The position numbers and the translations under genes were made by a program. DNA of 64,000 bases from Pseudacidovorax sp. NFM-22 (GTDB lineage: Bacteria; Pseudomonadota; Gammaproteobacteria; Burkholderiales; Burkholderiaceae_C): the NCBI RefSeq assembly GCF_021401245.1, contig NZ_JACBFY010000001.1:682001-746000 (forward strand). The letters run 5' to 3'. The notes under the pieces were generated by a model. It had not been told where the DNA came from and ran no database searches. It saw only the letters and a program-made list of their open reading frames with translations. This document shows, piece by piece, positions 5,068 to 12,533 of the stretch (the stretch's first letter is position 1; each line of letters opens with the position of its first letter).

Positions 5068-6249
5068 ATGCGTACCCAAGTCGCCATCATCGGCGCCGGC
5101 CCGGCCGGCCTGCTGCTGGGCCAACTGCTGCACGTCGCCGGCATCGACAACGTGATCGTCGAACGCCAGACCGGCGACTACGTGCTCGGCCGCATCCGCG
5201 CCGGCGTGCTGGAGCAGGTCACGATGGACCTGCTCAAGAAGGCCGGCGTCGATGCGCGCGCCCATGCCGAAGGGCTGCCGCACCACGGCATCGAGCTGCT
5301 CTTCCAGGGCCAACGCCACCGCATCGACATGCATGCGCACACGCAGGGCCGGCAAGTGATGGTCTACGGCCAGACCGAGGTCACCCGCGATTTGATGGAC
5401 GTCCGCGCCGCCGCCGGCCTGACCACCATCTACGGTGCGGCCAACGTCAGCCTGCATGACTTCGACGGCGAGCGCCCCCGCGTGCGCTACGAGAAGGACG
5501 GCGCCACGCACGAGATCGAATGCGACTTCATCGCCGGCTGCGACGGCTACCACGGCGTGAGCCGGGCCAGCGTGCCGGCCAGCGCGGTCAAGCTCTACGA
5601 GAAGATCTATCCCTTCGGCTGGCTGGGCATGCTGGCGGACGTGCCGCCGGTCTCCGACGAACTCATCTACTGCAACACGCCGCGCGGCTTCGCGCTGTGC
5701 AGCATGCGCAGCCGCACCCGCAGCCGCTACTACGTGCAAGTGCCGGTCGAGGAGAAGGTCGAGAACTGGAGCGACGACGCCTTCTGGAACGAGCTGCGCC
5801 TGCGCCTGGACCCGGAAGGCCGCGAGCGCCTCGTGACCGGCCCCGCGCTGGAAAAAAGCATCGCCCCGCTGCGCAGCTTCGTGGCCGAGCCGATGCGCTT
5901 CGGCCGGCTGTTCCTGGCGGGCGACGCGGCGCACATCGTGCCGCCCACCGGCGCCAAGGGTCTGAACCTCGCGGCCTCGGACGTGGGCTACCTGTACCAG
6001 GCGCTGGAGCGCTACTACGGCGAGCGCAGCACCAGCGCGCTCGACCGCTATTCCGACCTCTGCCTGCGCCGCATCTGGAAGGCCGAGCGCTTCTCGTGGT
6101 GGTTCACCTCGCTGATGCACCGCTTCCCCGACACCGGCGACTTCGGCCAGAAGATCCAGGAGGCCGAGTTGGACTACCTGGTGCACTCGTCAGCGGCGTC
6201 GACCTCGCTGTCCGAGAACTACGTCGGCCTGCCGCTGGAATCGTTCTGA
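5068..6249 (+). CDS. pobA: 4-hydroxybenzoate 3-monooxygenase
   Basis: FAD- and NADPH-dependent flavoprotein hydroxylase that converts 4-hydroxybenzoate to protocatechuate, feeding the protocatechuate branch of aromatic catabolism. The 393-residue protein is full length. It shows the N-terminal FAD motif [14 protein letters not shown], the family stretch RIRAGVLEQ, the mid-protein CDGYHGVSR containing the DG motif, and the second FAD motif [20 protein letters not shown]. The start [12 protein letters not shown] is typical of PobA and follows an AGGAGA ribosome binding site. It is divergent from pobR and is probably induced through the operator at 4939-4979. Its 3' end overlaps the end of the convergent giant gene by 31 bases. 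Downstream protocatechuate genes are not in the window. Confidence 0.96.
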
Positions 6250-9200
6250 GCGGCACTCCGCGGACGCGGCCGGCGACTCGGCAGCGTCTCGCGGAGATGG
6301 ATCGTCTCGAAGGCCGCGGCTTCCTGCCCGCGCAGGTGCAGGTCCAGCGCCAGCGTCCAATGCCCTTCGGCGACTTCGGACTGCCGGACAGCCAGCCAGC
6401 CCTCCCCGTCCCAGGCGCCCACGCTGTCGACCTGCAGCGTGAGGCCGCCGACGAGCGGAACCGACTCTTCGAGCAACACCGTGTCGGCCAACGAGTTGGC
6501 GAAGCGCATGGGTGCATGCAGGGGCGGTGCCACGATGGCGAGGCCCTGCAGGTCGGGCCCGATGCGCAGGCGCGCCACGGCCGAGCAGTGGTAGTCGCTG
6601 GACAGCAGCACCACGTTCTGGATGCGGTGCCGCACCAGGAGGTCGAAGAAGCGTTGCCGGTCGGCGGGCGACATCTGCCAGTTGTCGGCCTGCCGCGGCG
6701 CGGGACGGCCGGCAAACTCCCGCAGGCCCGGCGCGATCACCGAGCCGCACATCACCCACTTCGGCGCATCGCCATGCATCTGCTGCTCACGGCACAGCCA
6801 GGTCTCCAGCAGCCTCCAGCCGGTCTCCGACAGCAGTCGACGCGTGCCAAGTTGCCGCGAGGTGCGCGCATCCAGCATGAAGGCCGAGATGTCGCCGCAG
6901 CGGAAGGCGCCGTGGTGGCGCGCATCGTCGGCGTCGCCGTCGGCGGCCGCAAAGGGATCCGGCCCATGAGCGCGCTGGAAGGCGCGGTAGGCCGCGCGTG
7001 CGGTGAGCGCCCGCCATAGGCCGCCCTCGCCCAGCCACAGCTGCTCGCGCGTCCAGTTGTCGACGATCTCGTGGTCGTCCAGCACCATGACGATCGGGAG
7101 CCGCTGGGCCAGCGCGCGGAAGCCGGGCGAGCCCATGGCGTCGCGGTAGCGCGGCAGGATGCGCTCCAGCTCCGAGGCCGTGTCGAAGAGGCCGGCACGC
7201 GCATCGGCATAGACCTGGTCGCCGAGCATGGCCATGAAGCGGGCGTCGCCCGTGCGGGCATGGGCGTGCGCCAGCGCTGCCAGGCTGGCGTCGGCACGTG
7301 CCGACTCGAAGCCCGTGATGCCGGGATGCCGGCACCCCGCGGCAAGGAAACAGGTGCCGCCCTCCGCGGGCCGGCGCAGGGCATCGGCCACGTGCAACCG
7401 TGCCTGCTCAGGCGTGGCCAGTTCACGGTCCACACGCGACAGCGTGGCCGGGTCGGCACGGCGCGCGGCGGCGGCACGGCGCTTCAGCTCCTCGCGCAGC
7501 ACGGCCACCAGGCCATCGGCATAGGCCTGCGACAGCAGCGGCCCCTGTTCGACCACCGGGCCGATCAGGCCGTCCTCGGGCAGCACGATCTCGTCCGTGG
7601 TCGGGGGGACGGCGAACGGCGCGGGCACCCGGTCCTCGGGCAGGGGCACGCGCCGGGCGGCGCGGACGAGCAGGCTCGTGTCGATGGTCAGGCGGAAGGG
7701 CGTGGCGGCGTCCGCGGCGGCGGCCGACACCCTGCCCGGCGTCTGGCCGGTCAGCACGGCCAGGTCGTGGGCGGCCTGCGCATCCTCATCCAGCATTTCT
7801 CCGGCCGCGGGGACGCCGGTGGATGCCGATGGCGGCGTCTGGCCCGGCATGCCCGCCGGCACCAGCGGCGCGGCATCCATCGGCGCGGCGCTGGCGTCGA
7901 AGGTGTAGAGCCCGAAGACGTCGATGTGCACGCCCTCCACGTCCGCAGGCAGCACCACGTCGGCGACGAGCACGCTGACCGGAAAGGCCGTGCCCGGCGG
8001 CACGGTGTCGGACACCTGCGCCGGCGGCCGTGTCTGCAGGACCACGGTCCTCAGAGGCCAGGCCTGCGAGAGATGCCATGGCTTCCGCCGGAGCTGGCCG
8101 CACGCCAGCGTCATGCCGCCCACCAGCAGGCCACCGTGTCGGCGCCGGAACTCGGCCCACACCCGCACCACCGTCGCGCCGCCCTGCCCCGGCCGCACCC
8201 AGCCCATCAGCGGGCCGGTCGCCGGCAGTTGCGCCTCGGCGTGGCGCTGCACCTGCGGCGGGGCCAGCGGGCGCGTCCACGCATCGGCCAGGAACTGCTC
8301 GATGCGGGGAAAGACCTGCTGCGCTGCGGCGCGGCCGATGGTGCAGTCGAAATGCGCGAAGCCCGGCAGCGGGTGGGCCGTGACCCGCGGCATGGGCTGA
8401 GCCGGATTGGAGGCGGTCGAGCGCCCTTCCTCGCCGAAGACCCGGCGCAGCTGATCGGCGCTGCGCGCGAGGGACGCGACGTCGAACAGCTGGTTGTCGC
8501 TGCCGTGCATGAGCATCATCGGCATGTCGAAATAGCGCCGGACCTTGTCGTCCGACAGGTAGTCGCGGCCATCGTCGTCCACCAGCTGTTCGTGCTGCAC
8601 GCATTTGGCGCCATGCAGGAAGACGCCCAGGTTGGTGCGGCCGAAGTAGATGTCCAGCCGCTCGTGGAAGGTCTCGCCCAGGCGCCCATGATCGAAAAGC
8701 GGACTGAGCAGCCCGGACATGCGCTTGCAGGTGGTGGTGTCGGGCTGCTCGACGCGCAGGTCGGCTTCGTGGGGGCAGGCCTGCAGCTTGTGCGGGCAGT
8801 GCTGCGCATGCGGGCACGCCGGATCGTCGTGCGGGCAGGCCTCGCCGCGCGGGACACAGGGCAGGTCCGCATGCGGCATCGTGGCGAAGAGCCGGTCCAG
8901 CAGCCCATGCAGCAGATCGGGTGTTCCGACACCGGCGGCGAACTCCAGGAACTCGCGGCCGAGCACGTTGTGCATGAAGGCCCCCAGCTGAAGACGCTGC
9001 TGCGCCGAGTTGGAGCCGATCACATAGGGCTGGAACTGCGAAAAGACGGCCCCACCCAGACGATGCACCTGGCCATCGCCCTCGGGATGGCGCACGGCCA
9101 GGTGTCCACCGGCCAGCGACATCGCCAGCGAAGCAGCGCCCACGCAATGGCTGAAGGCGTGGATGCGCAGCAGCTCGGGCGCCAGGTCGAGCTCCTCGCC

Positions 9201-12200: not shown

Positions 12201-12533
12201 GCTGCCGCCGCCCAGTCCGTTGCCCACGAGGGCCGCGGCGCCCTGCCCCACCCGGAAGTCGAAGAGCGCATCCTCATAGCCGGCCGCCTGGACGCCGGTC
12301 GCGCCCTGCCACTGGGCGCGCACGTACTTGCCGGCATCGCCCAGGTCGCTCGGGAATTCGCCAGCCACGTATTCCTGCCCGCGTTCGAGCACGCCGACAT
12401 TGAACCCGGCTTCGGCCAGCCGCAATGCCGCCACCGAGCCGCCGTAGCCGGAGCCCACGACGACGGCGTCGAAACGTCGCTGCTCATCGGGCGCTTCGAG
12501 CAGCGCCTCCAGGTTGTCGGAGAGCCACTGCAT
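6219..12533 (-). CDS. Three-domain fusion: GMC oxidoreductase - alpha/beta hydrolase - PhoD-like metallophosphatase (2104 aa)
   Basis: One uninterrupted 2104-residue frame. Residues ~20-610 are a cholesterol-oxidase-like GMC flavoprotein: FAD motif [20 protein letters not shown] (25-44), ferredoxin-like C224-x2-C227-x2-C230-x3-C234, HPLGGCPMG (539-547), and C-terminal [13 protein letters not shown]. Residues ~615-650 are a Pro/Ala linker, and ~680-1000 a region I do not recognise. Residues ~1030-1425 are an alpha/beta hydrolase whose nucleophile elbow reads FSHCVGAAS, giving a candidate triad C1130-D1346-H1394. It carries four CPH motifs at C1233, C1240, C1246 and C1253. Residues ~1720-2000 resemble PhoD/phosphodiesterase D: GDQVYAD (1771-1777), [10 protein letters not shown] (from 1818), SSDYHCSA (from 1978). 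No signal peptide is seen. AAGGGG precedes the ATG, 18 bases after the kinase gene. Domain calls are from motifs; the substrate is unknown, with a sterol or lipid ester only a guess. Confidence 0.85.

Follow-up and report, generated by a model that had tools for sequence, protein, structure and literature searches.

Why does one gene of Pseudacidovorax sp. NFM-22 carry a flavoprotein, a hydrolase and a metallophosphatase in a single chain, and what might such a protein act on? The question arises from a stretch of 64,000 nucleotides (contig NZ_JACBFY010000001.1 of assembly GCF_021401245.1, positions 682,001 to 746,000 of the forward strand; hereafter the window), in which an earlier note, made from the sequence alone, described an uninterrupted frame of 2104 residues. 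In our best reading, the protein processes lipids by three chemistries and is under the control of a sensor of the lipid or of the membrane state. We put a probability of roughly 0.5 on the three-enzyme protein acting, probably in the cytoplasm, to remodel or degrade a single class of hydrophobic lipids, under expression control by a membrane two-component system. The coordinates and length in the earlier note are exact, and the strand, which it left unstated, is minus:

6219..12533, minus strand: gene for the 2104-residue protein (GMC, middle region, acid-lipase-fold hydrolase, PhoD)

Frame length alone is weak evidence for a gene at this locus, since the guanine-cytosine (GC) content of the region is about 72% and the antisense strand, too, has a long open frame of 2076 residues (7071-13301). 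The listing of open reading frames (ORFs) and the translation give the minus-strand frame an ATG start and no internal stop; the plus-strand reading of 6219-12533 in the same register contains a stop. We consider the gene real because third-position GC stays at 0.85-0.94 across all 450-base slices of the minus frame and because intact relatives exist in three other Pseudacidovorax assemblies, namely L007 (2104 residues, 96% identity), L006 (2098 residues, 95%) and L008 (2093 residues, 71%). These relatives rule out an artefact of frame or assembly, and frame breaks between the domains, which the note had named as a possible refutation of its single frame, are thus not supported. The window's genome (6.4 Mb, 21 contigs) holds one full copy of the gene, and the motifs that the note had listed (CxxCxxCxxxC, GDQVYAD, DDHE and SSDYH) are all present in the translation. 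For the analysis of folds, two AlphaFold2 models were built from alignments of the window protein and sequences of related loci; they cover residues 1-1035 (mean predicted local distance difference test score, pLDDT, 76) and 960-2104 (mean pLDDT 68).

The N-terminal part is a flavin domain that carries a cysteine cluster:

10698..12533, minus strand: GMC flavoprotein domain, residues 1-612, with the flavin adenine dinucleotide (FAD) motif GSGYGG and catalytic His539 and Asn589 (from Pfam, model, fold, profile and conservation)
11832..11864, minus strand: cysteine cluster C224-x2-C227-x2-C230-x3-C234, a predicted iron-sulphur (Fe-S) site (from conservation, hhalign and the spacing in Burkholderia cepacia glucose dehydrogenase, BcGDH)

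Judged by its sequence, this domain is a member of the GMC oxidoreductase superfamily: both GMC domains score above the Pfam cut-off (GMC_oxred_N 3.7e-8, GMC_oxred_C 8e-13) and the His/Asn pair is present, H539 and N589 being invariant in 46/46 aligned members. The alignment includes the window and comprises 37 PhoD-bearing and nine PhoD-less members, with L006, L007 and L022 left out. The previous description as a cholesterol-oxidase-like flavoprotein holds for the nearest PDB sequences, in which cholesterol oxidase is the best match of the GMC profile (1.4e-39) and glucose dehydrogenase the next family (5.2e-11). In the fold search, fructose dehydrogenase (Z 36.0) is tied with choline oxidase (35.8), cholesterol oxidase reaches 34.7, and the top matches in a viral structure library are GMC proteins of giant viruses. 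Against the cholesterol oxidase equivalog of NCBIfam, the domain scores 155.5 bits, below the cut-off of 850. The cysteine cluster of that description is present as well; the word "oxidises" needs correction for the Fe-S motif.

C224, C230 and C234 are kept in all 46 aligned members and C227 in 45; the sole member without C227, L015, retains the C-x5-C-x3-C trio exactly. The trio has the spacing of Cys212, Cys218 and Cys222 of BcGDH, which bind a 3Fe-4S cluster according to a passage of PMC6719666; this likeness is one of spacing, and the placement goes via hhalign to one GMC linked to PF13618 instead of a direct BcGDH alignment. In that comparison (E 3.4e-9) the family cysteines fall on the CxxCGxC...GC..AK of the L093 GMC, which adjoins a PF13618 gluconate-dehydrogenase small subunit and whose last cysteine gap is one residue longer than that of the window's family. 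In the alignments, Streptomyces cholesterol oxidase lacks cysteines at the corresponding positions. Because the cysteines of the family match the Fe-S motif of those GMC dehydrogenases that transfer electrons, we regard a dehydrogenase as more likely than an oxidase for the flavin domain, and a cysteine-bound Fe-S cluster may sit at C224-C234. The window's genome has 0 matches to the PF13618 small subunit, and none of three GMC frames inspected in it (L002, L082, L083) shows C-x5-C-x3-C.

Behind the flavin domain lies a region for which we can name no relatives:

9714..10601, minus strand: middle region, about residues 645-940, mixed beta, no family found (from the model)

No Pfam family occurs in this region in more than one of the 20 members scanned and no PDB sequence matches it with E below 0.1; the listed fold matches of both models cover the GMC, hydrolase and PhoD parts, with none listed for the middle region. 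It is followed by the hydrolase:

8274..9554, minus strand: alpha/beta hydrolase domain, about residues 994-1420, acid-lipase fold, with Cys1130, Asn1347 and His1394 (from model, fold, profile and conservation)
9144..9146, minus strand: codon of Cys1130, the predicted nucleophile at the nucleophile elbow (from profile alignment to gastric-lipase Ser153; 46/46)

The domain search that the earlier note had proposed finds GMC_oxred_N/C and PhoD, and the Pfam scan of the 2104-residue protein returns no hydrolase family; the hydrolase is recovered by profile and predicted fold. The best fold match of the model is lysosomal acid lipase (Z 32.9, 3.2 Å over 335 residues), followed by gastric lipases (31.8 and 31.4) and, after these acid lipases, by a next hydrolase at 25.7. 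Gastric lipase also matches the family profile (4.7e-13). We therefore assign the domain, as modelled, to the acid-lipase type of alpha/beta hydrolase fold. The profile aligns C1130 to gastric-lipase Ser153, and a weak second HMMER segment aligns N1347 to Asp324 and H1394 to His353; Ser153, Asp324 and His353 make up the lipase triad. In the model, C1130, N1347 and H1394 each come after the strand at which the nucleophile, the acid and the histidine, respectively, would be expected, and C1130, G1132, N1347, H1394 and D1396 are invariant in all aligned members. The family thus carries Cys1130-Asn1347-His1394 in place of the Ser-Asp-His triad of acid lipases, and we know of no alpha/beta hydrolase with a Cys-His-Asn triad. 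The residue preceding Asn1347 varies among the 46 members and is therefore a poor candidate acid; other conserved acids that could complete the triad are D1099 and D1396 (46/46) and D1213 (45/46).

Such a Cys/Asn active site, as predicted, leaves acyl transfer open as a possibility, and the ester cleavage proposed earlier is less certain with these residues. A possible, if doubtful, alternative is that the domain is an acyltransferase or a polymer-type synthase, with a Cys nucleophile as in polyhydroxyalkanoate synthase (PhaC), for which the GMC and PhoD domains prepare or trim the acceptor. The unvarying Cys1130 (46/46) is consistent with this, as are PhaC structures at Z 25.3 among the fold matches, class III PhaC matches in NCBIfam for two short forms (3.6e-4 and 2.8e-4, weak and far below the cut-off) and genes for PhaE, a coenzyme A-transferase and an alcohol dehydrogenase near L044. 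However, acid lipases are clearly ahead of PhaC in fold (32.9 vs 25.3) as well as in sequence (4.7e-13 vs 0.018), and PhaE is a neighbour at only one of nine loci. The Cys-Asp-His set of PhaC is present in part: Cys and His are there, and Asn occupies the acid position in 46/46, that position being set via gastric lipase and not via PhaC. The loss of the canonical lipase Ser and Asp could also be taken to mean that the domains are partly decayed and that the protein serves as a scaffold or as a regulator of the neighbouring kinase. We find this very improbable, since the replacements are invariant in 46/46 and decay would not maintain one alternative set of residues; moreover, the positions for FAD, the cysteines and the PhoD metals are retained.

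The C-terminal part holds the third enzyme:

7365..8246, minus strand: linker and N-terminal extension of the PhoD part, residues 1430-1723, mostly of low model confidence (from the model)
6267..7364, minus strand: PhoD metallophosphatase domain, residues 1724-2089, with Cys1734 at the Fe3+ ligand position (from Pfam, fold, profile and conservation)

Pfam PhoD (PF09423) is matched at 1e-21 (77.9 bits against a cut-off of 27), and Bacillus subtilis PhoD (2yeq) in fold (Z 28.4) and profile (2.8e-23). C1734, D1772, Y1775, D1819, D1820, H1821, E1822, D1980 and H1982 are present in 33/33 aligned PhoD parts; this alignment omits seven PhoD parts from split genes whose starts are uncertain, three partial ones (L009, L026, L041) and the near-copies L006 and L007. 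The profile places Cys1734 on chain residue 124 of 2yeq, which we infer, with an offset of 56, to be the Cys-180 that a passage of PMC4223295 gives as Fe3+ ligand of B. subtilis PhoD. With the Pfam score above its cut-off and the metal-ligand positions kept, the part can be placed in the PhoD family from its sequence, and the earlier description of a PhoD-type metallophosphatase with intact motifs holds. It seems to work inside the cell. Eight separate PhoD proteins of related loci show no export signal (highest 17-residue hydropathy 1.18 in the first 60 residues), some members have an RR pair but no hydrophobic stretch, and a canonical PhoD is encoded at a separate locus of the window's genome.

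Are the three enzymes found together elsewhere? The related-locus search gave 37 loci, and with plasmid and genome-survey loci there are 48 GMC-hydrolase loci besides the window. PhoD accompanies 39 of these and is missing from nine. It is fused in 22 and encoded by a separate downstream gene in 17, the order being kept in all, so that the survey which the earlier note had suggested, for the same architecture and for separate genes in the same order, yields both forms. Six split pairs overlap by 4 bases (L017, L018, L019, L037, L039 and L068), and about half a kilobase lies between the split genes of L010 and L033. The 39 include L022, truncated at the end of its contig, as well as close relatives of the window (L006, L007) or of each other (L003, L005); copies (L001, L045, L075, L076) and partial or PhoD-only loci (L009, L023, L024, L026, L041, L042) were left out of the counts. 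Together with the conserved active-site residues, these loci bear out the claim of three catalytic units in one protein and lend good support to three chemistries that serve a common lipid pathway. Order and neighbourhood are conserved across Beta-, Gamma- and Alphaproteobacteria, the kinase described below being absent in the alphaproteobacterial loci. The GMC-hydrolase-PhoD link is old. In a tree of 46 rows, a single branch with a Shimodaira-Hasegawa-like approximate likelihood ratio test (SH-aLRT) value of 100 parts PhoD-bearing from PhoD-less members; because a quick method and a midpoint root were used, the tree does not set which state is the older.

A survey with the hydrolase profile was positive in 10 of 200 genomes of the order and 9 of 398 genomes of a phylum sample, the window's own genome being included in both. 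The order sample holds six positives with PhoD (G000, G132, G069, G189, G046, G111), three without (G027, G029, G113) and one unclassed (G205, in which a short frame for the hydrolase stands apart from a GMC-like one). In the phylum sample PhoD is present in two (G000, G267) and absent from five (G027, G029, G339, G447, G518), while G536 and G544 have short hydrolase frames that fall outside this classing. The PhoD form is not rare, and the phylum sample is richer in PhoD-less ones. The added phosphatase had earlier been called uncommon; this does not agree with the order sample, in which 6 of 10 positives carry PhoD, and fits the phylum sample, with 2 of 9 carrying and 5 of 9 lacking it.

The nine PhoD-less loci are informative in their own right. 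A calcineurin-like metallophosphoesterase gene lies near five of them, a count that stands without a control for its frequency near random genes. The phosphoesterases of L069 (6.5e-13), L071 (2e-5) and L073 (4.3e-6) score above the Pfam cut-off; those of L004 (0.0014, annotated metallophosphoesterase) and L072 (0.011, homologous to that of L004, on the opposite strand and with a second GMC gene intervening) score below it. The nine loci are related (L071-L073, and L004 near L072), so there are perhaps three independent phosphoesterase cases. In L071 (5564-7684) and L073 (11209-13140), a RoxA-like cytochrome c gene stands between the GMC-hydrolase and metallophosphoesterase genes, and its product is a possible electron acceptor. 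A PhoD relationship of the separate Azospirillum phosphoesterase was ruled out (hhalign probability 2%). Two further observations concern these loci. A second, hydrolase-less GMC gene accompanies the GMC-hydrolase gene in Leptospira (L043, 8506-9924) and in L072 (2312-4045), which belongs to the window's phylum. On the Rhizobium leguminosarum plasmid locus L044 (1440-3088, minus strand), a thiamine-diphosphate enzyme is split into N-terminal and central/C-terminal frames near phaE.

Alternatively, the three enzymes may share no more than their regulation, as might occur under starvation for phosphate or carbon, and act on different molecules, the fusion having followed from operon proximity with no shared substrate. 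We hold this to be unlikely. The coexistence of fused (22) and separate-gene (17) forms implies that physical linkage is not essential, and the low-confidence stretch of the chain lies between hydrolase and PhoD, both of which speak for co-regulation. Against this stand the conserved order and neighbourhood in three proteobacterial classes (without the kinase in the alphaproteobacterial one) and the non-PhoD phosphoesterase of five of the nine PhoD-less members, which fit a shared pathway better.

What might control the enzyme is suggested by the genes upstream:

12552..14306, minus strand: hybrid histidine kinase of the membrane with HisKA, HATPase and receiver domains, lying upstream of the enzyme gene (from Pfam and as conserved neighbour)
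14242..15153, minus strand: LuxR-type response regulator (receiver and GerE; from Pfam and neighbour comparison)

The window kinase ends 18 bases before the ATG of the enzyme gene; the true start of the regulator is probably near 14890, because its receiver begins at residue 97. An adjacent, upstream, same-strand orthologous hybrid kinase is found at 31/39 PhoD loci vs 0/9 PhoD-less loci. The alignments of these kinases span 82-100% of the query kinase and take in its membrane part; the Pfam-checked ones have HisKA, HATPase and receiver domains, and all 17 examined by hydropathy have 3-6 predicted membrane segments. As we read it, the L015 kinase is masked by nothing more than an ORF whose start is set too early; the L066 kinase adjoins the enzyme gene in opposite orientation, L010 has a partial kinase frame at a contig end, and L022 is cut by one. 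The same test finds the LuxR-type regulator, before the kinase or after the enzyme, at 20/39 PhoD loci and 1/9 PhoD-less loci. Roseateles loci share further neighbours beyond the kinase, which we read as ordinary synteny. A promoter and terminator scan gave 0 and 1, respectively, not above shuffled sequences.

In the lipid-processing reading, the GMC FAD dehydrogenase would first oxidise a hydroxyl, with electrons passing via the Fe-S cluster to a carrier and not directly to O2. The acid-lipase-fold domain would then attack an acyl ester through an acyl-cysteine (Cys1130-His1394-Asn1347), resulting in hydrolysis or acyl transfer, and the PhoD domain, of Fe3+/Ca2+ type, would cut a phosphodiester. 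The kinase might sense the lipid or its membrane state and switch the operon through the LuxR-type regulator. Lipid chemistry is favoured because the nearest families are cholesterol oxidase and acid lipase. Sterol- or isoprenoid-like lipid esters are candidate substrates, suggested only by cholesterol oxidase and cholesteryl ester hydrolase relatives, by the RoxA-like neighbours at two loci and by the Streptomyces chromofuscus phospholipase D, which a passage of PMC4223295 places in the PhoD family. One may go further and suppose a self-contained circuit of sensing and dismantling, in which the neighbouring multi-pass kinase senses a lipid signal, soluble in the membrane, that the protein itself produces or removes, and that the protein oxidises, deacylates (via the acyl-cysteine) and dephosphorylates one sterol- or isoprenoid-like phospholipid; this we would call a long shot, quite unlikely as it stands.

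The repeated physical linkage is the strongest support for the lipid-processing reading and the substrate its weakest link. Several further points weigh against this reading. The share of the PhoD form is biased, related loci having been found partly with a PhoD peptide, and the counts are not independent, given that the loci are mutually related. The kinase test was negative in L003, L005, L027 (Ensifer, Paramesorhizobium), L067 and L010, and two PhoD-less loci do have an opposite-strand kinase: L074 at 1.1 kb, with a regulator, and L043 at 1.5 kb, with half coverage. No phosphoesterase was seen among the scanned neighbours of L043, L044, L070 and L074, in a scan that covered part of the ORFs. 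Of four small-subunit-linked GMCs, L091 and L093 show CxxCGxC and L090 and L092 another pattern; the exact C-x5-C-x3-C occurs in 0/4, and the last gap is four residues where readable. The equivalence of Asn1347 with Asp324 comes from a weak second HMMER segment plus secondary structure. Ca2+ is scarce in the cytoplasm, and simple hydropathy gives no export signal in 33 enzymes, the 17-residue maximum before the FAD motif being 1.05. PhoD itself is described in a passage of PMC4223295 as extracytoplasmic and exported by the twin-arginine translocation (Tat) system.

Other genes of the window lie on both sides of this operon. The minus frame 5017-6186 was considered as an operon member and rejected, as its codon pattern is that of a shadow; the plus strand there encodes an FAD_binding_3 monooxygenase (4975-6249), which adjoins a PcaR/PobR-type regulator (4144-4914, minus strand). 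We take this pair to be a pobA/pobR-like arrangement. The end of the monooxygenase frame overlaps the end of the 2104-residue gene tail to tail by 31 bases. Further along, two neighbouring 2-isopropylmalate synthases on the minus strand, 18826-20595 and 20396-22168, are of leuA_bact and yeast type, with a ketol-acid reductoisomerase gene nearby. A 547-residue frame (17160-18803, minus strand) matches no Pfam or NCBIfam family at E 0.001 and may not be a gene.

When several enzymes are fused, the fusion shows which of them are partners in a pathway. In the present family, a dehydrogenase, an enzyme of acid-lipase fold with Cys as nucleophile and a phosphodiesterase stay together across Proteobacteria. 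Their linkage, in most cases joined by a dedicated sensor, predicts a lipid pathway not yet described, together with its regulator. It also offers a defined protein for testing, in which the acid-lipase active site occurs naturally with Cys in place of Ser and Asn in place of Asp. For every domain there is a known family to which it belongs or which it resembles in its working, and some members are already annotated as "alpha/beta fold hydrolase". In listings and a few passages of one open-access library, obtained in searches aimed at the combination, we found no description of the three enzymes together, of the kinase module, of the acid-lipase variant with Cys and Asn or of a fused Fe-S GMC; two papers of that library, PMC12542777 and PMC5371717, mention both GMC oxidoreductase and PhoD.

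How, then, does the protein compare with known systems? With Streptomyces cholesterol oxidase (PDB 1b4v, 3cnj) it shares the aligned His/Asn pair and 26% identity over the aligned fold, whereas the CxxCGxCxxGC of the family is absent from the Streptomyces enzyme. Its C-x5-C-x3-C spacing is that of the BcGDH alpha subunit as given in a passage of PMC6719666, and the large subunit of Gluconobacter fructose dehydrogenase is the joint top fold match of the GMC part. Fe-S GMC dehydrogenases of these types assemble with a small subunit and with a cytochrome c as a further subunit (in part from a passage of PMC6719666); in contrast, the window's genome is without the PF13618 small subunit. Lysosomal acid and gastric lipases (PDB 6v7n, 1hlg, 1k8q) are the best match of the hydrolase in fold and sequence and share the HxD after the last strand, but here Ser153 is replaced by Cys and Asp324 by Asn, and the domain is bacterial, without a visible signal peptide and fused to other enzymes. 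Finally, the PhoD part has the Cys Fe3+ ligand position and the GDxxY, DDHE and DxH motifs of B. subtilis PhoD; it differs from the PhoD enzymes in the passages of PMC4223295 in having no visible export signal and in being fused or coupled to a GMC-hydrolase.

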